Made by a program: the position numbers and the translations under genes | In this document: positions 1 through 11,994 of the stretch, one piece after another | Layout: each line of letters begins with the position of its first letter | Position numbering within the stretch: the stretch's first letter is position 1 | Notes under the pieces: generated by a model | Seen by the model: the letters and a program-made list of their open reading frames with translations, nothing else | Database searches by the model: none | Told to the model about the DNA's origin: nothing | IMG/VR virus record: IMGVR_UViG_3300024346_000440 | Location: 1 to 26,327 of that record | Reading direction: 5' to 3' (one strand) | DNA length: 26,327 bases | Source of the DNA: a virus

Positions 1-1724
1 AATTACATAATGAAATTGATGAAGCTTATAAAAGCGTGTATAGCAAAAAAATACTACCGTCTATGCGATCACTTCAGTTCGGAGGAAAACCGATTGAAAT
101 TAGTCCTAATCGCGTGTATAATTGCGCTTATCTACCAATTGATCACATTGATAGTTTTCACGAAACAATGTTCTTGCTACTTGGAGGAACCGGTGTTGGA
201 TACTCTGTACAAAACCATCACGTAAGTAAAATGCCACCAGTTAGTAAACCTTATGCTAAAAGAACTAGAAGGTTTTTAATTGGTGATAGTATTGAAGGTT
301 GGGCTGATGCAATTAAAGTTCTTATGAAGTCTTATATGGGTGATAAGAGAAGTTCTACTGTAGAGTTTGATTACTCAGATATAAGAGCTAAAGGCGCACA
401 GCTAGTTACGTCAGGTGGTAAAGCACCAGGACCTCAACCATTAAAAGAGTGTATACTAAAGATTAAAGGTATATTCGATGCTAAAGATGATGGTACACCG
501 TTAACAACTGTTGAGGCTCATGATATAGTTTGTCATATAGCTGACTCTGTTTTAGCTGGTGGTATTCGTAGAGCTGCTTTAATTAGTTTGTTCTCTGCTG
601 AAGATAATGAAATGATTAGTTGTAAGTCTGGTAATTGGTGGGAAACAAATCCACAAAGAGGTAGAGCTAATAACTCAGCTGTTCTTATGAGACATAAAGT
701 AACTAAAAGCTTTTTTATGGATCTATGGAAGCGTGTAGAGTTATCAGGATCAGGTGAACCTGGTATATACTTAAACAATGATAAAGACTGGGGTACAAAC
801 CCTTGTTGTGAAATAGCATTAAGACCTTTTCAGTTTTGTAACCTATGTGAAGTAAATGCTAGTGATATAGAATCACAAGATGATTTTAATGAGAGAGTTA
901 AACATGCTAGCTTCATAGGTACACTACAAGCTGGTTACACTGATTTTCATTATTTAAGAGATGTATGGAGAGATACGACAGAGAAGGACGCCCTTATCGG
1001 TGTATCAATGACAGGAATCGCGAGTGCCGCTGTGCTGCCGTTGGATATGAAGGCCGCTGCAAGTATAGTAAAAAGAGAAAACTCAAAGACAGCTAAAGCA
1101 ATTGGTATTAATCCAGCTGCAAGATGCACAACCGTGAAGCCTGCTGGGACGACATCTCTAGCGTTAGGAACTTCATCTGGTATTCATGCATGGCATAATG
1201 ATTATTATACGCGTAGAATCAGAGTTGGTAAAAACGAATCTATGTATAAGTATTTATCTACTAATCATCCTGAGTTAATTGAAGATGAGTTTTTTAGACC
1301 TCATGATACTGCTGTAATTAGTATACCACAGAAAGCACCTAAAGATTCTATATTAAGACATGAATCACCATTTGATTTACTTGAAAGAATTAAAAAGGTT
1401 GCTACAGAGTGGGTTAAGCCAGGTCATAGAAAAGGATCTAACACTCATAATGTTTCAGCCACTGTTAGTTTAAAACAAACAGAGTGGGATCAAGCAGGTG
1501 AATGGATGTGGAAAAATAGAGACCATTACAATGGTTTATCTGTGTTACCTTATGATGGTGGCACATATACTCAAGCTCCGTTTGAAGATATAAGCAAAGT
1601 ACAATACGACATGGCAATGAAGCATCTTAAAGATATTAATCTTAGTAAGATTGTTGAAACAGAAGATGAAACAGATCTTGCTGGCGAAATAGCTTGTGGC
1701 GCAGATGGCTGCGAAATAAAATGA
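1..1724 (+). CDS. nrdJ: Adenosylcobalamin-dependent ribonucleoside-triphosphate reductase (class II), 5' end cut by window edge
   Basis: The frame is open from the left edge (base 3), so the N-terminus lies outside the window and about 574 residues are visible. The enzyme reduces ribonucleotides to deoxyribonucleotides with a B12-generated cysteine radical, supplying dNTPs for phage replication. Visible signatures are YNCAYLPID with the N-terminal active-site Cys (codon 123-125), LLGGTGVGYSV, the active-site block GTNPCCEIALRPFQFCNLCEVN split by position (radical Cys codon about 804-806, partner Cys about 837-839), the KPAGTTSLALGTSSGIH block near 1138-1190, and a C-terminal redox pair CGADGC (codons 1695-1697 and 1710-1712). 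This cysteine set, without the C-terminal tyrosines of class I or the glycyl radical of class III, fits the monomeric class II enzymes. It overlaps the next gene by ATGA. Two GC-rich patches (981-1070, 1111-1180) differ from the rest of the gene. Confidence 0.93.
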   Translation, partial: LHNEIDEAYKSVYSKKILPSMRSLQFGGKPIEISPNRVYNCAYLPIDHIDSFHETMFLLLGGTGVGYSVQNHHVSKMPPVSKPYAKRTRRFLIGDSIEGWADAIKVLMKSYMGDKRSSTVEFDYSDIRAKGAQLVTSGGKAPGPQPLKECILKIKGIFDAKDDGTPLTTVEAHDIVCHIADSVLAGGIRRAALISLFSAEDNEMISCKSGNWWETNPQRGRANNSAVLMRHKVTKSFFMDLWKRVELSGSGEPGIYLNNDKDWGTNPCCEIALRPFQFCNLCEVNASDIESQDDFNERVKHASFIGTLQAGYTDFHYLRDVWRDTTEKDALIGVSMTGIASAAVLPLDMKAAASIVKRENSKTAKAIGINPAARCTTVKPAGTTSLALGTSSGIHAWHNDYYTRRIRVGKNESMYKYLSTNHPELIEDEFFRPHDTAVISIPQKAPKDSILRHESPFDLLERIKKVATEWVKPGHRKGSNTHNVSATVSLKQTEWDQAGEWMWKNRDHYNGLSVLPYDGGTYTQAPFEDISKVQYDMAMKHLKDINLSKIVETEDETDLAGEIACGADGCEIK

Positions 1725-2200: not shown

Positions 2201-2239
2201 AGGAACTTTGGGTATGGTGCCCAGTATTTTATTGTTCCT
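2201..2239 (-). other. Imperfect hairpin overlapping the stop of the giant virion gene
   Basis: Outer arms AGGAAC (2201-2206) and GTTCCT (2234-2239) and inner arms TGGG (2209-2212) and CCCA (2220-2223) can pair with asymmetric interior loops. In the minus-strand transcript this structure forms right at the stop codon of the 2421-residue gene, just before the terminator. It may stabilise the 3' end; it could also be chance. Confidence 0.3.
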
Positions 2240-5200
2240 TATTTAAACTTTAATTTAACTTTTTTTCTTTTTGGTTTAGTTTTATTAAGTTTTTTAACTT
2301 CTTTTTTAGTATCTTTAACTGATGTTTCAAATGTTATTATTTCAACATTTCCGTTTTTAAATTCACTTTGTTCTTGCTTTTTATCCTTAGGCATTATCTG
2401 CCATTTTGGCCAACCAGCTAACATAGCTACAGACTGCCATGTTTCAGCATCTTCGTCCATTGCTCCAGAAATATTATCTACTTTGCTATACACTCTATCT
2501 AGCGGTATATTTACAGTTGCAGATATTACTTTTGCTCCAGCTTCATATGCTGGATTATCTATGCTAAATCCTTTTTCAAATATTTCTTCTCTACGTTTTT
2601 TACTATCAAACTGCCAAGCGGCTCCTCTAATTTTAGATATTTTACTACTTACAGGTGGAGATATTTGTAACAGCTTGTATATAGAATCTACATACTCAGG
2701 TCTTTTTCTTCCAGATCTTTCGTATATATCAGTTAAAAAGTTTTTAATTACAGCAACTGTAGCTCCAGCTAAACCTAAACCTCTTAATTGAGAGTCTAAC
2801 ATACCATTAGCTATCCTTAAATACTTTTTCTTTTTATCTTTTTCATAAGCTTCTAATTGCTTCTCTGTCATGTCATCTTCATCATCTCCAAATCCTAATC
2901 CAAACAGTGCAGATTGTAAAGCATTAAATATTAAATTCTGAACTACAGCATAGTATATAATCTTACTAACATTTGTTTTAGCATCTCCTCTACCATTAAC
3001 TATGTCTTGTAAAGCTCTTTTTTGTATTCTAGCATATTGCATAGGTGTATTAGCAAAAGCTAATATAACTCTTCCCAAGTCACTCGCTTGTTGAGCAGAT
3101 ATTTTACTTGGATCAGATGACTGTTGAGAAACTTCAGCTGTTTCTCTCCACTCTAACATAGCTTGCTTCTTAGCATCAGCTTCTGACATACCTTCGTTCT
3201 TTATTAAATCTTTTATTCTATTACGATAAAAAGTAGCACCACCAGCAGCTATAGCAAAGCTATCAGCAAATTGTGTAGGTAAAAATCCTTTTTGTAATAT
3301 ATAATTAATAGCAGCTTTAGCTTTGTTTTTACTAGTTGCAGCAGCATCAGCTATTTCAGATTCGTTTATGTTTAGTTTTAAACCGTTACGTCTATCAACT
3401 AAATAATCAGAATTAATTAACTCAACAAAATCTTTCCAATATTGAGGTTGATTAGCAAATGCAGCACCTGCTTTTATAGGATTATTAAAACTCCAGTTTA
3501 AAAAGTTTATAGCAGATATAGTTTGAAGAACTGCTGATCTAGTGTTGAAGAACATTATAGCACCAGTAGAATTATTTATATAATCTAAAACCCTATTGCT
3601 AAGTCTATTACCACTAAATATTCTGTTTTTACCAGACTTCATTCTACCTAGTACATTTTCCATAGCTTCTCTATACTTACTACCATAAGCTGCTTCTAGC
3701 TTATTTAAATTATCTTTGCTAAATATCAATTCAGCATTAGCAGTAAATCCAGATTGTTCTAAGTACTTAGCTCTTTTAACAGTGTTTAATACATCAATTA
3801 AATCAGTTGTTATTGTACCAACTAACCAGTTTTCACCTGGTTTAGCATAACCATCGCCTTTAGTTATACTAAATATTTGATCACCAAATGCTTTTAAAAC
3901 GCCGTCAGAATTAACTAAATCTAATAATTCTTTTAAATCTGTCTTAGATATACCAGGAACATCGTAACCAGCTTTGTTAAATAAGTAAACTCTTACAGCT
4001 TGTTCTTTAGTAAAACCTGACTCAGTTTTTTTCCTAAGATCTTTAGGAACTTCTAAAGCTTTTTTGAGAGCTTTAAAATCCTCCATTAATTGTATTCTAT
4101 CAGCTGCTATGTTTTCATTTGCCATAGCGTATGGATCAAGTAAGTTCTTTTTAAACCAAGCCATTTGGCTGTCACCTAATTTACCTTTACTTAATAATGG
4201 ATATATTAATCCCATAAAGTCTTCAGCTGAATAAGGTATAAAGAATTTTTTATTGCCCTTGTTAGCTCCTCTTACTTTTGCTTTAGCTTCTGAATATACT
4301 TTTTCCGATGCTATTCCTGTAGTTTGTTCTATTATTTTATTGAAGTCTTCATTAACAGATTTGCTAAAGTTTATTTTAGCTTGTTGAACTTTAGACTTAA
4401 CATCGAGAACAGACATAGCATCTTTAACAGCTTTTACATTTTGGTATGCATCATCTGCAAAATAAAAGTCATTATATCCTTCTGCTGCTTTATCAACCAT
4501 CCAATTAGCTTTAGCTTCACCCGTAGAGTTACCTAAACCAGTTATATTTTCTAATGGTATATTTAATCCTACACTATCTAAAAATTCTTTAATAGCTACT
4601 TGAGCTTCAGGTGCTCTAGCTGTTAAAACAAATACATCTTCCGTTCCTCTTGCTGCTTGTATTTTTTTAGCTATATCTAATAATGGACCAGGCTTACCTT
4701 TAGTGACTTTGTTAAACTCAGAAAAATCAAATACATAACCCTCTTCTAACAGTCTAGCTCCATCCATAGCAAACTTTTCAGCAGTTAAACTACCTTCAGT
4801 TCCGTCAGGTGCTGTAAATAAAACGTCTGATTTAGTAGTAGCTAATGTATCATCAAAATCAAATACTCTAATTTTTTTAACAGGAGCGTTTGGATCTCTT
4901 GCTACTTTTAAAGCTTCGTCAACTGTTTTAGCATATCCAATAATGCCTTCGTTACTAGTTGTTTTGCTAAAATTTACAACATTGTTTGATAAATTTTTTA
5001 CGTTTATATTTTTAGCTTTTGATTTTAATTTTTCTACTTCAACTGTTGTAGAGTTACCGCTGGCATCAACATTAAACATTTCACCAAACGTCTTGCCTTC
5101 TAAACCTATTATAGAGTTTGGGTCTATACCACCATCTTGGCTAGAAACTATATCGTTAAAATACCTTTGCCACCAAAAATTATCTATAACACTCCAATCG

Positions 5201-8200
5201 TCAGGCATTCTCTTTTGTAAGCTATAGCCACTTTTTGTCCTAACATTTCTAAGCTTATCATCCATAGCTTTGTCTAAAGCTATTAACTTATAATTTTTCA
5301 TAGTTAAATCATAAGCTGTTTCAAAATCACTTTTTGAAAGCGCAGCATCCATTAAATATAAATAAGCAGAAGTAGCAGGCATCGCGTGTTCATATTCATA
5401 TCTAGATCCAGTTATTTGATCTGAATAACCTTCAAATTGAGCGCCTAGCCTATGCCAAGAATTTTTATCATTAGCTACAAACTTTAAATAAGTACCTATA
5501 GATCTAGCTTTTTGCCCCGTTTTATCTTTTGCAATAGCTTCGTTAAAACGTTTCCACATTTCTTTATGTATTATAGAAACTTTTTTATTCCATTCTTTTA
5601 TTTTGCCGTTTTTCAGATTAGCTTGTATTACCTTTTTATTTTTAAATATACTAGAGTATTTATCAATAGAAAAATCCTTAATACCTTTTATTGGTTTTCC
5701 AAACGTTATAGTATCATCAAATTTTAAATCTTGAATTTTTCTTTTAATATCAGCATACGCAGCGGCTTCTTCAGGTTTTTTAAACTGTCCTTTTTTAGGT
5801 CCTTCTTTATATTTTGATCTACTTAATCCATAGCTAGCATTACTACCAGTAAAAGCGGTAGACATGTTTTCACCTTTTCTATGGTCTCCTTTACCAAACC
5901 AAAAGTCTTTAGGCATTAAAGGTAATAGTTGGGTTTTTATAGCTTCTACAAATTGATTTCTCCCCTTCTCAGTTCTTAAATTAAAAGAATCTTCTATTCC
6001 ATAAGATTTTAAAAGTTTGTTTATACCATTTGTTTCTAATTGAAATAAATTTCTTATATTTATTATTTCATCTACAGATTTACTAAAACTAAATCCTTCA
6101 GGTCGTTTTACTTTTTCAGATATTTTAGGTTTAATATCTTTAGGAACTTCTTTACCTTCTATTTCTTGTATCTCTTTAAACTTTTCAAATACTTTAGGAT
6201 CTTCTATAACCTCCATTGTGGCATCTAAAGCCATTTCATCTGCTATAGTTTCTGATAATGCAGTTTTTCTAGTGCCTTTAGTCGATGCTCCTACATCTTC
6301 ACCTAAAAAATAATTAATAAATTCTTCTTTGTTAAAAGGCTTCTTTTTAAATACACCTTTGCCAACAGCTGTTTTTTCTCTAACTTGCTTGCCTTCTTTG
6401 TCTAACACAGGCTCTGCAAAATATTGAAATCTTTTATTAATAGTTTCTTGAGGTATAGATTTATATAATGTTTCAGCATTATTAGTCACAAACATTTTAA
6501 AATCTGATCTAGTGCCCATTAGAGCATTAACTTCTTTTTTAAGTTCTCTTTTATAGCTATCGGATAAAGATTTCTTAAACTTAGGATCTGTAACTTCTGG
6601 AAGCTTTGTACCAAATGTTTTAACTACAGCATCTTTAACTTTGTTATAAAGATCAGAACCTTTTTCAATATTAAGCTTTTTTCTTAAACTTCTTGGTACT
6701 TTTTCCTCTTTAGTTTTAATTTCAACTTCTACTTTAGGAGCCGCTATATCTACTCTTTGGGATATATCCTCTTCAAACGTTTCACCTAAAACTCTTTTTG
6801 ATGCTTCAATAGCTCTAGCTGGTAAAAACTTATTTATATAAGCAGCTAATGGTACACCTGACTCTATATTATAATCTTGTATTAACTCTAATAAACCTCT
6901 TTTACCAGTTTCTATTTCGTCAGTAAGTAATTGTCTATCAAAGTTTGGAGCTTCACTTCTACGTTGTACTATTTTGTTTACAATAGGTTTAAACTCTTCA
7001 ATAATATCTAATGCGCCTGCAACGCCTTGCTCTTCATATATTTTTTGAACATTTTCAGATGCTGTCTTAGACATTGAAATCTCTTGTTTAACAGGTGCAA
7101 CTTCTGCTAATTTTAAAGCTCTAGCACTTATTAACCCTTTTTCAGCAGTTTTATTATAGTCTTTTAAAAAGTTATAAGCTTGCCTTGCATTACTAAAATC
7201 TTTAACTATACCAATTTTTCTAAATATTTCTTGTAATAAATTTTTAAGTTTATTACCAAAGCTTTCATTAAACGCAACTTCCTTCTTTGCTATTGCATCT
7301 GATAATACTGTAAATATCTCAACAGAAGTTTCAGCATCAAAATTAGGGTCTGATTTATAAGCTTTAAATCTATCATTTATAGCTTGATTCTGCTCGTCGC
7401 TTAGTATATTTCTAAAGTCGGATATAAGCTTTTTCTTTTGGTTAGTATTTAAATCATTAAAAGCATTATTAATAACACCATGTAATACTTCGTGTTGGCC
7501 AGTATTAAATGCGCCAGTCTTACCTACTACATCTTTATTTATTACTATAGCGTCACCTAAATAAAATCCATCAGCACTTGATACGTCTTGACTACTTTGA
7601 TCTGGGTTTTCTTTTAAAAACTCATCGTATATTTTTTGAGCTTTATCACCGGCTGATCCTTCACTATCAGTTTCTACTACATATACTTTTTTACCAAGTT
7701 TTTCACCTTGTGTTTCTGCGAACTTAACAGTTTTGTTTATTCTTAAGTCTTTTATTTCTTTTGCAATAGATACTTGCTCTTCAGCTAGTTTTATTTCAGC
7801 TTCACTAGCGCTTGTTTTAGATATTAAATTATCAATTTCTTGTATTCTTTCTTTAGACTTTTTAACAGACTCTTGATTAGGATCAAGTCCCTCTATTTTT
7901 TGTTTTAAATTAGTTTTTTCGTAAATTAAATTAGCTATTTCTTCTTGTTTTTCTTCTAATAATTCAGAGTCAGTTTGTTTAACTGCTTGTTGAAAATCTT
8001 CTACTTTTCTTATAAGCTCGTCCCCTTGTTTTTTAGAAATATTTCCTAACTCTTGTTCTTTTCTTATTTCAGATATAGCTCCTTGTTTAACTTTATTATT
8101 TCTTAATAAAACCTTGCCTGTAGCTCCTAAACTTTGAACAGTACCTCCCATAAAGCTACCTAAAGCAAAAGCTTCAAAAGCATTGCTCATGTAGTCTTCA

Positions 8201-9504
8201 AGTGTTAAGTCTTGAACTCCATAAAAGTCATCTGTTAAATCTTGACCAAGCGAAGTTAAAGCTTCTGTAGTTCCTTCTAAAGCTGTATTTATTCCAAAAG
8301 CTTTAAATATTTCTTTAGCTGTCTTATCACCTAATTCTTTTGATATTTTTTGAGCAGCTTCTTTACCTGCTATATTAAAAGTTTTTCTTACTTGGCTTCT
8401 AATTCCTGATTTAAAAACTTGAAAAGATTTAGCACCAACCGGACCCATGATTCCTTCAAAAAATCCTTCTGCTCCACCTCTTAGAAAAGCTCTACCAAGC
8501 TTGTCTCCTCTAGTAAGCTCTTTTAACTTAGGATCATCTGAAAATCTAGATTCTTCATACTCGTCAGGAATTAAAATACCTGACATCATACCAGAACTTC
8601 CTAAAGCTTGTTTTATTAAAAGTTGTGTTGTTGGTATAGATTTACCTCTTGTAGCTACAGCTGGAAGTGAAGATAAAACCATTAATGGCAAGCTTTCAGC
8701 TGTTGTTCTAAAACCTAAATTAGCCGCATCTGCAAAGTTTCCATTTTTTATACTATTAACAAACCCGTCTTTATACTCTCTTTGAGATTCTCTTAGTTTG
8801 TTTCTTTTTTCAATATTAGATTTAGACATTAAATCTCTATAAGCTCTATAAGCTAATTGAACATTTCCAGGTTTGTAACCTGTAGTTTCTAGTATAACAT
8901 CTTCTACGTAGTTTAACCCAGCATTTTTAAAGTTTTCTATAGCTATACTGCCTGCTTGTAAACTTTCCCAAAGATCAACTAATCTACTTCCAGATTCTTT
9001 TTGCTTTTTTGCTAAAGATTTTAATTTATCATCTCCTTCTGGTATGTCTAATTTAATTTTTTCATCTTGAAGGTCATTTATAAAGTCATTGTCAAAAAGT
9101 TTATTTTTTAAAATTTCTCTATCAACTTCTTTTCCGTCTATGTAATACTTACCAGGAACTTCATCTATATTATATTTAGCTTTTCTAGCTTCTTCTTCTT
9201 TTTTTTGTTCTAAAGCAAAGTCTCCAGTAGTGAACATATCTCTTGATTCAAACAAATCCTCTTGACTAATTTCAGCATCGTCTTTACTTGGCAAAGTTTT
9301 TTCAACTTCTTCAAACTTAAACTCTGGAAATTTAGAATTTGCAACCTCATAGTTGTAGTCTTCTTTTTCTACTGTAGCTGTGTAATCTTTTAAAAGCTGA
9401 GGATCGTACTCAGATAACTCTGGAAATTTATCTAAAACAACATCCCAATTATAATTATCTTGTTGAGCTGTTGCTACTAAATCTTTTAATAATTGTTCAT
9501 TCAT
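2239..9504 (-). CDS. Giant multidomain virion protein (2421 aa) with zincin-like and HAD phosphatase-like domains
   Basis: Likely a large polyvalent-type protein packed in the virion and delivered with DNA. Residues 1-62 hold two copies of a roughly 30-residue repeat (QLLKDxxATxxxxxYNxxVxxxKFPE). Residues about 150-470 are helical with small hydrophobic patches, and 475-590 look like coiled coil. HEVLH at 671-675, after a FYLGDAIVIN strand, is the zinc-binding HExxH of a zincin metallopeptidase, with a possible third ligand in SVEIFTVLSDAI near 729. A complete HAD set follows: DFDDT (1549-1553), VLTAR (1626-1630), Lys1665 and FADD (1682-1685). Other recognisable blocks are KFLPARAIEASKRVLG near 892-907 and YEHAMPAT near 1371-1378. 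The C-terminus has a hydrophobic stretch at about 2240-2258 and a Lys-rich tail. Its ATG overlaps the upstream stop by one base (TAATG). It is the last gene of the late unit. The activities are inferred from motifs only. Confidence 0.85.
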   Translation of the reverse strand: MNEQLLKDLVATAQQDNYNWDVVLDKFPELSEYDPQLLKDYTATVEKEDYNYEVANSKFPEFKFEEVEKTLPSKDDAEISQEDLFESRDMFTTGDFALEQKKEEEARKAKYNIDEVPGKYYIDGKEVDREILKNKLFDNDFINDLQDEKIKLDIPEGDDKLKSLAKKQKESGSRLVDLWESLQAGSIAIENFKNAGLNYVEDVILETTGYKPGNVQLAYRAYRDLMSKSNIEKRNKLRESQREYKDGFVNSIKNGNFADAANLGFRTTAESLPLMVLSSLPAVATRGKSIPTTQLLIKQALGSSGMMSGILIPDEYEESRFSDDPKLKELTRGDKLGRAFLRGGAEGFFEGIMGPVGAKSFQVFKSGIRSQVRKTFNIAGKEAAQKISKELGDKTAKEIFKAFGINTALEGTTEALTSLGQDLTDDFYGVQDLTLEDYMSNAFEAFALGSFMGGTVQSLGATGKVLLRNNKVKQGAISEIRKEQELGNISKKQGDELIRKVEDFQQAVKQTDSELLEEKQEEIANLIYEKTNLKQKIEGLDPNQESVKKSKERIQEIDNLISKTSASEAEIKLAEEQVSIAKEIKDLRINKTVKFAETQGEKLGKKVYVVETDSEGSAGDKAQKIYDEFLKENPDQSSQDVSSADGFYLGDAIVINKDVVGKTGAFNTGQHEVLHGVINNAFNDLNTNQKKKLISDFRNILSDEQNQAINDRFKAYKSDPNFDAETSVEIFTVLSDAIAKKEVAFNESFGNKLKNLLQEIFRKIGIVKDFSNARQAYNFLKDYNKTAEKGLISARALKLAEVAPVKQEISMSKTASENVQKIYEEQGVAGALDIIEEFKPIVNKIVQRRSEAPNFDRQLLTDEIETGKRGLLELIQDYNIESGVPLAAYINKFLPARAIEASKRVLGETFEEDISQRVDIAAPKVEVEIKTKEEKVPRSLRKKLNIEKGSDLYNKVKDAVVKTFGTKLPEVTDPKFKKSLSDSYKRELKKEVNALMGTRSDFKMFVTNNAETLYKSIPQETINKRFQYFAEPVLDKEGKQVREKTAVGKGVFKKKPFNKEEFINYFLGEDVGASTKGTRKTALSETIADEMALDATMEVIEDPKVFEKFKEIQEIEGKEVPKDIKPKISEKVKRPEGFSFSKSVDEIINIRNLFQLETNGINKLLKSYGIEDSFNLRTEKGRNQFVEAIKTQLLPLMPKDFWFGKGDHRKGENMSTAFTGSNASYGLSRSKYKEGPKKGQFKKPEEAAAYADIKRKIQDLKFDDTITFGKPIKGIKDFSIDKYSSIFKNKKVIQANLKNGKIKEWNKKVSIIHKEMWKRFNEAIAKDKTGQKARSIGTYLKFVANDKNSWHRLGAQFEGYSDQITGSRYEYEHAMPATSAYLYLMDAALSKSDFETAYDLTMKNYKLIALDKAMDDKLRNVRTKSGYSLQKRMPDDWSVIDNFWWQRYFNDIVSSQDGGIDPNSIIGLEGKTFGEMFNVDASGNSTTVEVEKLKSKAKNINVKNLSNNVVNFSKTTSNEGIIGYAKTVDEALKVARDPNAPVKKIRVFDFDDTLATTKSDVLFTAPDGTEGSLTAEKFAMDGARLLEEGYVFDFSEFNKVTKGKPGPLLDIAKKIQAARGTEDVFVLTARAPEAQVAIKEFLDSVGLNIPLENITGLGNSTGEAKANWMVDKAAEGYNDFYFADDAYQNVKAVKDAMSVLDVKSKVQQAKINFSKSVNEDFNKIIEQTTGIASEKVYSEAKAKVRGANKGNKKFFIPYSAEDFMGLIYPLLSKGKLGDSQMAWFKKNLLDPYAMANENIAADRIQLMEDFKALKKALEVPKDLRKKTESGFTKEQAVRVYLFNKAGYDVPGISKTDLKELLDLVNSDGVLKAFGDQIFSITKGDGYAKPGENWLVGTITTDLIDVLNTVKRAKYLEQSGFTANAELIFSKDNLNKLEAAYGSKYREAMENVLGRMKSGKNRIFSGNRLSNRVLDYINNSTGAIMFFNTRSAVLQTISAINFLNWSFNNPIKAGAAFANQPQYWKDFVELINSDYLVDRRNGLKLNINESEIADAAATSKNKAKAAINYILQKGFLPTQFADSFAIAAGGATFYRNRIKDLIKNEGMSEADAKKQAMLEWRETAEVSQQSSDPSKISAQQASDLGRVILAFANTPMQYARIQKRALQDIVNGRGDAKTNVSKIIYYAVVQNLIFNALQSALFGLGFGDDEDDMTEKQLEAYEKDKKKKYLRIANGMLDSQLRGLGLAGATVAVIKNFLTDIYERSGRKRPEYVDSIYKLLQISPPVSSKISKIRGAAWQFDSKKRREEIFEKGFSIDNPAYEAGAKVISATVNIPLDRVYSKVDNISGAMDEDAETWQSVAMLAGWPKWQIMPKDKKQEQSEFKNGNVEIITFETSVKDTKKEVKKLNKTKPKRKKVKLKFK

Positions 9505-11078
9505 TATCTAGCAATACCTTGATTTCTATTTAATTCTTGTTGTTGTTTTTGTTTTATTTCTTGCAATGCTTCTCTAAATATAGTGTTTTTTCTCATTTCT
9601 TCTTTTTGAGCATCTGTCATTTTTTCAAAAACAAGACCTGTTTGATTAGTTTCTTTAGCATATTGATCAACTGCATATTTAAGAGCTTCTCTACTAAAAG
9701 TTTGAGCTTGAGTAGGTGTAGTATCTCCAGTTAAAGCATCAACACTTCCACCTTCTTCTTCAGCTGCGTCTAAGTTTATGTCTAAAGTATTTAAATACTC
9801 AGTCATTCTGACTTGAGGTATCATTAAGTCTTTTGGTTTGTTATCATTTATTTGTATTATTAACTTATCTAAGTTGGCGTTTGTAGCTTCTAACTTATCT
9901 AAAGATATTACTTCTGAATATTTTGGTATAGCATCTTTACCAGTTCCCTGGTAAGTTACCCTATAAAGAGTATCATTTTTTACATCAAAAGCAACTGCAG
10001 AACCAGGGTTTTGATCTCTTAAATACTGAGCATATGAATCTAAAGGAGAATCTGATTGTAGTATGTCTAAAGCGGTATTAGCCTCATTTCTAAAGATTTT
10101 AGTATAATCACCTTTTTTAGCATCGTCATTATCTTGCTGCTGCATAAATAAAGTTGTTTGGTTCTCTTTAGCATATTGGTCCATTATCAAGTTAACCTTA
10201 GCGTCTAAAGCTTTTTGAATTTGATCAGAAGTACCTTTAAAAGGCTCGTTAGGATCTATGTTATTTGAAAACTGAGATAAGTATTGGTATTCATCTCCAG
10301 ATATACTAGTTAACAAGTTAGGATCATTATATAAATCTTCTCTTATCTTTTGTCTAGCTAAATCATAATTTTTTCTAGTTGTAGTAGTTATAGTACCATC
10401 AGCTGCTTCAGTTTGTATTTTAATAAGCTTAGGTTCATAATTGCTAGCATATTTATCATATATAGCCTTATACTCAGCACTTGGATCATCTACATAGTTT
10501 ATAGTTCCAGGGCCACCATTTTTTCTAGACTGCATGTAGTTACTTATGTTTTTACTATAACCATTATAGTTTAAAGTAAAATTACCATTTTCATAACCTA
10601 TTTTAGTTCCATTACCTTTATTTAAAGATATATTATTCATAAAAGCTCTAGCTTTAGGATCTGTACTATTAGATATTTTAAACTGACCACTACCGTTTTC
10701 AACTATCTTTTGATACTCTCTACCTTCTTCGTCAAATATAGCTAAACCAGATTGCAAATCTTTAACGCCGTTTAGTAAGTTTGATTGAGCTTTTAAATAT
10801 TCGGTTTGGTCTCTACCAATAGAATTGTAACCTAATCTATATATATTATCTATTTCAGAATTAATTTTAGCAGTTAAACTATCTTTAAAATTTTCTTCAT
10901 CATCAGCACTTAAACTAGATGATATTCTTTTTAACTCTGCATCTTGTAAAGTTAATTCGTTTTTACTTTTTTCAATATTAGCCATTTGAGTATCAAATGC
11001 TGTAACAGCTCCTTGAATACTTTTTGATAAGTATTCAGCACTTCTATTTATTAAGTATGGATTAAAACGTCTTGCCAT
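9504..11078 (-). CDS. Putative virion-associated protein of unknown function (524 aa)
   Basis: Begins MARRFNPYLINRSAEYLSKS and starts 10 bases after the 301-residue gene. Its stop overlaps the start of the giant gene (TAATG). The first 130 residues are predicted helical and charged (AFDTQMANIEKSKNELTLQD and the following stretch), the middle is mixed with many Asn, Asp and Tyr, and the C-terminal 60 residues are again helical and Gln-rich (QEIKQKQQQELNRNQ). No signal peptide, membrane segment or catalytic motif is apparent. Placed between a putative ejection protein and the giant multidomain protein, it is most likely an internal or ejected virion protein. That is inference from position, since I do not recognise the family. 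Confidence 0.72.
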   Translation of the reverse strand: MARRFNPYLINRSAEYLSKSIQGAVTAFDTQMANIEKSKNELTLQDAELKRISSSLSADDEENFKDSLTAKINSEIDNIYRLGYNSIGRDQTEYLKAQSNLLNGVKDLQSGLAIFDEEGREYQKIVENGSGQFKISNSTDPKARAFMNNISLNKGNGTKIGYENGNFTLNYNGYSKNISNYMQSRKNGGPGTINYVDDPSAEYKAIYDKYASNYEPKLIKIQTEAADGTITTTTRKNYDLARQKIREDLYNDPNLLTSISGDEYQYLSQFSNNIDPNEPFKGTSDQIQKALDAKVNLIMDQYAKENQTTLFMQQQDNDDAKKGDYTKIFRNEANTALDILQSDSPLDSYAQYLRDQNPGSAVAFDVKNDTLYRVTYQGTGKDAIPKYSEVISLDKLEATNANLDKLIIQINDNKPKDLMIPQVRMTEYLNTLDINLDAAEEEGGSVDALTGDTTPTQAQTFSREALKYAVDQYAKETNQTGLVFEKMTDAQKEEMRKNTIFREALQEIKQKQQQELNRNQGIAR

Positions 11079-11088
11079 AATTTATTAT

Positions 11089-11994
11089 TTATATTCCAAA
11101 TTTTTGTCTAGTAGAATCTATCAAAGCTTGTAATTCAACAGTTGATTCACCAGCTTGCTTTAGTCTTTCTCTGTCTTTAACCATATTACTTAATCCGGAT
11201 TTTTGCCAATCATTTTTTCCTTGTGGATCAGCGTAAATGTCAGCTGAAAGACTGAAGTCAAAAGAAGGATCTTGTCCAGGGTTCATGAGTTGTATATTTG
11301 CTATTTGATTTAAACCAGCTTGATTTGCCGCTTCTGTAGCATTACGAGTAAAATTAGTATTGTCCATAGTTGATCCAGATACTCCTGGTAACTGTGTTGG
11401 AACTAATCCTCCAGCTAATGTTTCTAATCCTTTACCTAAAGAGCTCATAGCTGATTGTGTAGAGTATATTTCTTGAGCTTTTAATAGGTCAGCTTGATCT
11501 TGAAGCATGTTTAAGTCTCTAACGTCTCTTTGCTCTTGTAGTCCCATAACCTGCATTTGACCTTGGGCTTTTGCCAAATCAACTCTTTGTTGACCTTGAG
11601 CTTGTAGTTTTTGATTTTGAGCTTCTTGTTGTTGTATATTAGCAGAAACACCTCTTTTACTTTGCAATGCAGCTTGTGCTAAAGCAGTTGCTCCACCAGC
11701 TCCAGTTTGTCTTAAATTATCTAATGTATTAGCTAAGGCAATATCTGATTGCTCAGCTTGAAATCTAGCAGCTTCTGTAGCTACAGATAAATTAGCAAAA
11801 GGGTTTGACATGTTAGCGTAAGGATTATTAAGCTGTTGCCTGTTTTCCATTAAGGTTTCTATATCTTTAACTTTATTACCGTAATCTCTTTTTGCTTTAA
11901 TAGCTTGAAAACCAGCTAAAGCGGCAGGAGCAGCCTGCGCAGCGGCTTTCCACCCTGTTCCACTTACTAATTCAAAACCTTCTAAAAAACTCAT
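11089..11994 (-). CDS. Putative internal/ejection protein, Ala/Gln-rich coiled coil (301 aa)
   Basis: The N-terminus has a small Ala-rich hydrophobic stretch (GWKAAAQAAPAALAGFQAIK, about 14-33). Residues about 70-180 form a long Gln/Ala/Asp-rich helix including LRQTGAGGATALAQAALQSK and repeated QAQGQQ-like units. The C-terminal third is Gly/Asn-rich and looks less ordered. This composition is typical of podovirus core and ejection proteins of the T7 gp14 / P22 gp7 type, which leave the capsid with the DNA and help it cross the cell envelope. The gene lies after the nozzle genes and before two further presumed internal proteins, which supports the role. Starts 10 bases after the preceding stop in an A/T-rich context. 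Family membership is not proven. Confidence 0.6.
   Translation of the reverse strand: MSFLEGFELVSGTGWKAAAQAAPAALAGFQAIKAKRDYGNKVKDIETLMENRQQLNNPYANMSNPFANLSVATEAARFQAEQSDIALANTLDNLRQTGAGGATALAQAALQSKRGVSANIQQQEAQNQKLQAQGQQRVDLAKAQGQMQVMGLQEQRDVRDLNMLQDQADLLKAQEIYSTQSAMSSLGKGLETLAGGLVPTQLPGVSGSTMDNTNFTRNATEAANQAGLNQIANIQLMNPGQDPSFDFSLSADIYADPQGKNDWQKSGLSNMVKDRERLKQAGESTVELQALIDSTRQKFGI

Follow-up and report, generated by a model that had tools for sequence, protein, structure and literature searches.

A virus fragment of 26 kb (IMG/VR record IMGVR_UViG_3300024346_000440; the whole stretch of 26,327 nucleotides is called the window here) closes its structural operon with a single open reading frame of 2421 residues, the candidate virion/ejection protein P0001 (2239-9504, ATG start; this gene and all features below lie on the minus strand unless stated otherwise). 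The locus raises the question of why one late gene should combine a zincin-type HEVLH protease site with a complete haloacid dehalogenase (HAD) phosphatase motif set. This pairing had been pointed out in an earlier note on the same DNA, which proposed that the protease processes virion or host proteins and that the phosphatase acts on nucleotides or nucleic-acid ends. Here, the domain identities, their conservation, the motifs at the domain junctions and the covariation of these motifs with the protease were computed directly. We consider it likely that the giant is an ejected, self-processing polyprotein, the zincin of which cuts its own linkers and frees an end-phosphatase together with other parts. 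Both earlier proposals would thereby be narrowed: the likeliest substrate of the protease is the giant itself, at its repeated junction motifs, and the phosphatase is likened more specifically to polynucleotide 3'-phosphatases.

The zincin-type metallopeptidase domain spans residues 561-839 (6988-7824), as delimited by an alignment of 80 homologs (A4) and by an AlphaFold2 model. All motifs were found exactly at the residues given in the earlier note (HEVLH at 671, SVEIFTVL at 727, DFDDT at 1549, VLTAR at 1626, K1665 and FADD at 1682), and the SVEIFTVL segment, described there as acidic and near HEVLH (7480-7494, residues 671-675), contains the candidate third metal ligand, E729 (7318-7320). 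Five columns do not vary among the 80 homologs, which share a mean identity of 21%: H671, E672, H675, E729 and one Phe. P0001 has just six histidines, and HExxH arose in 0.08% of its 5000 shuffles. The model of this domain (predicted local distance difference test, pLDDT, 85.7) has a zincin-like fold, with strands at 46-50, 86-89 and 92-96 (model numbering), HExxH on helix 108-123 and E729 at the beginning of helix 169-179; the check by predicted structure that the note had called for thus puts HEVLH on a helix beside a small sheet, with E729 on the helix after it. The first 36 matches in the VIA structure comparison were all zincins of the M34 type (lethal factor, PPEP; Z 3.9-5.7). Indeed, anthrax lethal factor and PPEP-1/2/3 share with the giant HExxH and a downstream Glu on the next helix, whereas the domain of the giant is without a significant sequence or Foldseek match to them and is embedded in cis in a phage protein. 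While sequence searches with P0001 alone gave no significant match to any known peptidase family or solved structure, 10 of the 80 homologs matched Pfam M78 (best E 1.1e-4), and a hidden Markov model (HMM) of the A4 alignment found the same domain in a “structural protein” of elemoA (E 3.6e-11). By its residue pattern and its model, the domain is well supported as a member of the zincin superfamily.

Both catalytic sites, furthermore, are conserved in the relatives far beyond chance. One relative of P0001 (in L001) is 63% identical across residues 119-2389, and 13 further relatives were found. The wider family, which we defined by the conserved all-helical C-terminal module (2242-4356, residues 1717-2421), comprises 177 unique giants in IMG/VR, where the C-terminal region has over 450 candidate loci; 168 of them are 5'-complete, and the median length is 2722 residues. 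HExxH is present in 162 of the 5'-complete giants and the HAD domain in 156, so that the pairing in one gene claimed in the earlier note is kept in 150/168, while only 1/168 shuffled controls had HExxH. In the subset retrieved via the C-terminal query alone, 67 of 71 giants have both domains and the remaining four have HAD without HExxH. Also, several sequence-divergent zincins fill the same slot among the relatives. The six giants without HExxH consist of one HExxxH variant and five with EE[LI]FH at the expected position; the former (L217) reads HEILGH at residue 1400, a zincin variant described for polyvalent proteins, and the latter (L254, L044, L078, L039 and L025) may use an unusual first ligand, or their protease may be inactivated. 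Searches of Pfam and of PDB sequences with the whole giant gave nothing useful, and tblastn against 50,697 phage records hit no isolate relative of either the whole giant or the HAD domain, with one weak match (E 0.3) for the C-terminal module. A virion RNA polymerase domain was not suggested by Foldseek, VIA or family searches, in which the helical C-terminal module was barely covered. Chance, an assembly chimera and an origin from DNA repeats were also considered as explanations and are opposed by the shuffles, by the 14 independent relatives and by the codon control described below.

The HAD phosphatase domain occupies residues 1540-1713 (4366-4887) and carries motif I DFDDT (4846-4860, residues 1549-1553), motif II VLTAR (4615-4629, residues 1626-1630), motif III K1665 (4510-4512) and motif IV FADD (4450-4461, residues 1682-1685). 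A loose HAD-like pattern was recovered in 1.1% of 5000 shuffles of P0001. In the family, T-A-R of motif II, the Lys and D-D are conserved in 156/156 sequences, and D-x-D-x-T of motif I in all 140 for which it falls within the HMM match, with the pattern recovering it in 14 of the other 16. Residues 1540-1713 are predicted to form a Rossmann fold of the HAD type, matching many solved HAD structures at Z 9-13, and membership in the HAD superfamily is well supported. The best VIA match was the 3'-phosphatase of T4 Pnkp (5uj0; Z 13.4, root-mean-square deviation 2.4 over 126 residues), and the top four were all polynucleotide kinase-phosphatases (Z 11.9-13.4), the best lying ahead of the first HAD protein of another kind by about 2 Z units; the domain also matched phrog_415, “polynucleotide kinase” (1.3e-5). 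The model thus refines the assignment towards polynucleotide 3'-phosphatases specifically, and the giant combines this nearest fold match with the Pnkp-type pattern of D-x-D-x-T, S/T-x-R, K and DD. T4 polynucleotide kinase 3'-phosphatase (PDB 5uj0, 1ltq) shares the fold and the pattern but differs in having a kinase domain, which is absent from the giant of the window, and in that the HAD domain of the giant is embedded in a virion polyprotein.

In nine relatives (L264, L132, L130, L128, L261, L225, L179, L122 and L118), nonetheless, a kinase-like part is found inside the HAD domain: an insert of about 200 residues between motifs I and II has a P-loop kinase-type sequence with Walker A or a close variant, and the three inserts tested (L264, L225 and L122) matched AAA_33 (4e-13 to 1.4e-14) and Zeta_toxin above the cut-off. 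A different kind of insert, a possible ADP-ribosyltransferase, was noticed in the same loop of another giant (L114:11391-11888; ART-PolyVal, E 0.0014, below the cut-off), and the loop between motifs I and II is therefore regarded as an insertion site. A kinase beside the phosphatase supports a function on nucleic-acid ends without proving it. R176 and D254 of T4 Pnkp presumably have no evident counterpart in the HAD domain of the giant, as judged by motif spacing only. The domain could instead be a nucleotidase or another small-molecule phosphatase, a substantial possibility that we hold to be somewhat doubtful. The substrate of a HAD enzyme is not readable from its fold, other HAD phosphatases were matched at Z 9-11.6, and the contigs of 60-70 kb in this group mostly have no RNA ligase, RtcB or stand-alone AAA_33 kinase; against these stand the four Pnkp-type structures at the top of the comparison, the phrog_415 match and the AAA_33 kinase inserted into this very domain in relatives. 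An RNA-repair operon was also looked for and rejected, as RNA ligase and RtcB were each above the cut-off in 0/30 contigs of relatives and AAA_33 was found only inside one giant.

Between the zincin and HAD domains lies a middle domain (5056-5544, residues 1321-1483) with a Glu-His (EH) pair, E1372-H1373 (5386-5391), which is invariant in 48/48 sequences of alignment A6 at a mean column identity of 25%, while N1404 and D1415 are frequent. No match of the EH domain to Pfam or PHROG rose above noise. The pair may be a third catalytic site of the giant. An HNH nuclease was considered for E1372-H1373, N1404 and D1415; the likeness is by pattern only, with no support from Pfam or PHROG, and serves as a lead only.

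The borders of these domains are marked by a recurrent tetrapeptide, [FM]S[KREQ][ST], which provides four putative cleavage sites: MSKT after the zincin (J1; 7063-7074, residues 811-814), FSKS before the EH domain (J2; 6076-6087, residues 1140-1143), FSKT before the HAD domain (J3; 4960-4971, residues 1512-1515) and FSKS directly after it (J4; 4357-4368, residues 1713-1716). At least four copies occurred in 0.08% of the P0001 shuffles, but the tetrapeptide had been spotted in P0001 before it was counted, and the family-wide tests therefore carry the weight. Counted in 138 giants, the motif has a density at the HAD borders that is 25-45 times that of the remaining sequence; per 1000 residues, its density is 10.4 after HAD, 5.7 before HAD, 2.2 before EH, 1.0 after the zincin and 0.23 elsewhere. 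The confidence of the AlphaFold2 model dips at residues 1711-1713 (490-492 in the model, pLDDT below 50) and at about 1481-1521, in agreement with linkers. Where the zincin is a different one, FSKS is often missing and the giant repeats a motif of its own at the junctions, such as AKNIDVD, QAKDID (four copies in L059), NTSEKM, ASKR, FSEK and others. Indeed, the junctions before and after HAD resemble each other within a protein more than in permuted pairs (20.7 vs 18.1, standard deviation 0.25, i.e., 10 standard deviations), and this similarity persists when the set is thinned to 76 proteins (p=0.0002), while a negative control window gave p=0.84. A third site for the protein's own motif, furthermore, beats that for the motif of another protein (p=3e-8), mostly at 165 to 195 residues after HExxH and 211 to 221 residues before EH. 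Codon identity at the matched junction residues equals the expectation from codon usage (185 vs 192.1), and the repeats hence reflect selection on the protein and not repeats of DNA. In the giants of elemoA, phi38:1, phi18:3 and Panino, internal motif repeats were not clearly above shuffles; the giant of ctfjg026 has longer repeats.

To measure covariation of the motifs with the embedded zincin, we compared junctions that are not homologous to each other between different proteins. The resulting motif similarity tracks the zincin when the C-terminal module and HAD are given (partial Mantel r=0.22, p=0.0005), also after thinning (r 0.18, p 0.0005); once the zincin is included, its N-side, the EH domain and the N-terminal region contribute nothing further, with the C-side region being borderline (p=0.058). 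A natural protease swap illustrates the same relation. Four giants (L218, L221, L239 and L259) have C-terminal halves that are mostly 80-96% identical from about J3. Two of them, L239 and L259, have similar zincins (0.92) and read ...QLAKASKR... at J4 and MASKR at J2 and J3, whereas L218, in which the same C-terminal backbone is joined to an unrelated zincin (0.09), reads ...QIAKFSKT... at J4 and has FSKT/FSRS motifs; namely, AKFSKT gives way to AKASKR on a near-identical C-terminal half. The giant thus contains, in one polypeptide, its own zincin and candidate cognate junction sites that covary with it, as self-processing would have it.

The same observations bear on three other readings of the junction motifs. 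A docking, packaging or unfolding tag for another virion protein (portal, scaffold or the proteins of 301 and 524 residues), with the substrate of the zincin elsewhere, would equally be expected to sit in linkers, and a small residual correlation of the motif with similarity of the C-terminal module is retained (r 0.11, p 0.001); the motif follows the zincin, however, and not the C-terminal module, the EH domain or the flanks, and it switches with the zincin between L239/L259 and L218, which makes such a tag unlikely. Alternatively, the zincin might be an effector against host proteins, and the motifs might be incidental linkers in a polypeptide that shuffles its domains. Conflict systems have effector zincins, which have also been proposed for polyvalent proteins (PMC5512222), and the HAD loop is a hot spot of domain insertion; nonetheless, incidental linkers would not be expected to share a private motif per protein without DNA-level repeats, nor to covary with the protease, and we regard this explanation as quite unlikely, although both roles could coexist. 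That the motifs are scars, left where linkers recombine or undergo gene conversion and so mediate module exchange, would fit the swapping of modules at the junctions, where an unrelated N-half meets the mostly 80-96% identical C-half from about J3, but is rendered very improbable by the codon identity given above.

Self-processing is the reading that we prefer, and several observations weigh against it. A clear pair of J3 and J4 is present in only 77/138 giants, the fifth copy in P0001 (MSKS at 226) lies outside any known junction, and one FSKT is found inside the neighbouring protein of 1123 residues. L221 and L218 have similar FSK motifs at J4 (FSKM in L221) with unrelated zincins, the mean zincin similarity inside the ASKR group is only 0.22, and four of the five EE[LI]FH giants keep KFSK junctions. 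The counts, furthermore, refer to sequences rather than to events that are independent of one another, and the Mantel correlations are of modest size. The Foldseek search of the zincin against PDB was not significant (best E 0.56) and the VIA Z of 5.7 is middling; because Foldseek alone is not significant, the call of the fold rests on residues and topology. Finally, the virion RNA polymerase of phage N4 has a zincin and yet is packaged uncut (PMC5512222).

From the sites and their covariation, we infer cutting at the motifs, the zincin as the cutter, its timing and the substrate of the phosphatase in the following way. The giant would be an internal virion protein ejected together with the DNA. 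The embedded zincin (about 561-839) would recognize FSKS/FSKT/MSKT in flexible linkers at 811, 1140, 1512 and 1713, and the cuts would release an N-terminal/protease part, a middle part, the EH-site domain, the HAD phosphatase of about 200 residues and the helical C-terminal module. Cutting could take place in the head or after injection, given that DdrB of phage P1 is cut before packaging and N4 virion RNA polymerase is packaged whole (PMC5512222). The freed HAD domain would act early in infection as a Pnkp-type phosphatase on 3' ends of polynucleotides, for example in healing ends made by host nucleases. The protease and its sites would co-evolve. More tentatively, and with somewhat less than an even chance in our view, the zincin and the linker motifs would diversify together and be exchanged as one matched set, so that a swap of the zincin module re-specifies the cut sites throughout one giant, with the freed end-phosphatase, kinase-inserted in some relatives, pre-empting the nuclease defences of the host.

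The genomic setting is consistent with a protein of the virion. As the earlier note had stated, the giant is one late gene at the end of the structural operon: the leftward gene order runs from the C-terminal part of the terminase through the portal, a protein of 381 residues, the capsid protein and several virion proteins to genes for 560, 301, 524 and 2421 residues. The 524-residue gene (9504-11078), a candidate ejection protein by its position only, is directly upstream of the giant, whose start codon overlaps its stop by 1 base. The 301-residue gene (11089-11994), which precedes the giant on its strand in 106/177 loci, is a homolog of gp120 of Cellulophaga phage phi18:3 (E 2.8e-4), with counterparts in elemo (9.6e-6) and in phi38:1 and Panino (8e-4 and 1e-3). 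In terms of capsid and portal, the nearest phages are Manatee Spring podovirus, Maribacter phage Panino, Elemovirus and Cellulophaga phages, all of which have the same gene order closing with one giant gene, and the giant belongs to marine Bacteroidota phages. In phi18:3, gp120 and the last syntenic gene, gp123, are annotated from tandem mass spectrometry as virion proteins. Since no sequence homology of the giant to gp123 was detected, its placement in the virion rests on position; by analogy with the syntenic gp123 and gp120 and from its gp120-like neighbour, the giant is probably a virion or ejected protein, in keeping with its description as a virion protein in the note. The label “crAss-like” given there to the operon did not find support: the capsid protein scored 15.4 bits against Pfam Crass_capsid, below the cut-off of 27, and the nearest isolates by capsid and portal (Elemovirus, Panino and Pervagoviridae) are not placed in Crassvirales in the records and taxonomy examined, so that membership in Crassvirales is not supported.

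Several side observations were made on these loci. Residues 1-65 of the giant (9310-9504) consist of two tandem similar N-terminal segments, QLLKDLVATAQQDNYNWDVVLDKFPEL and QLLKDYTATVEKEDYNYEVANSKFPEF. Elsewhere in the window, the C-terminal part of a gene for class II (B12-dependent) ribonucleotide reductase (3-1724, plus strand) converges on the structural operon. The syntenic giant of MW202828.1 (741-12320, L021; 3859 residues) has two HExxH sites and a misleading annotation as “reticulocyte binding/rhoptry protein”, and that of Panino (PP540027.1, 28228-33717, L016; 1829 residues) is annotated “tRNA methyltransferase” and has neither HExxH nor the HAD motif set.

Several unrelated catalytic domains in one polypeptide adjoining late virion genes, as found here, are the mark of phage polyvalent proteins, membership in which is supported by architecture and context. 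These proteins, which occur in phages and plasmids, are likewise giant, multi-domain and near late genes, with the zincin being their commonest domain (PMC5512222), and the weak match to ART-PolyVal in one relative adds to the likeness; a HAD phosphatase, cognate cleavage motifs and protease-site covariation, in contrast, are absent from the text of that study. Coliphage N4 virion RNA polymerase, gp50, is also a giant ejected protein, in which an HExxH domain is combined with a C-terminal part that is large and helical (PMC12633501), but it is packaged uncut, and no RNA polymerase domain was identified in the giant of the window. The prohead proteases of T4 and SPN3US (PMC5694885, PMC10052503) similarly process internal head/ejection proteins at a short consensus motif, whereas they act in trans from a separate gene; in the giant, one polypeptide holds both the protease and the sites, which covary. 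The classes of enzyme are already known, and so is self-processing as a general idea, Iyer et al. having proposed autoprocessing for polyvalent proteins in general in 2017 with no sites identified (PMC5512222); the literature searched did not contain the sites identified here, the covariation of these sites with the protease or the Pnkp-like phosphatase.

Self-processing of giant phage proteins by zincins has thus been an open proposal since 2017, for which the sequences now name candidate cut sites and predict fragments, and the natural series of protease swaps makes the idea directly testable. A polynucleotide-end phosphatase also joins the candidate enzymes delivered by phages at the start of infection. 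If self-processing is true, these giants would be the bacterial-virus counterpart of polyprotein processing, and the family would offer many pairs of protease and site that have evolved together (FSKS, ASKR, QAKDID, NTSEKM and others), a library that might find use as orthogonal proteases.

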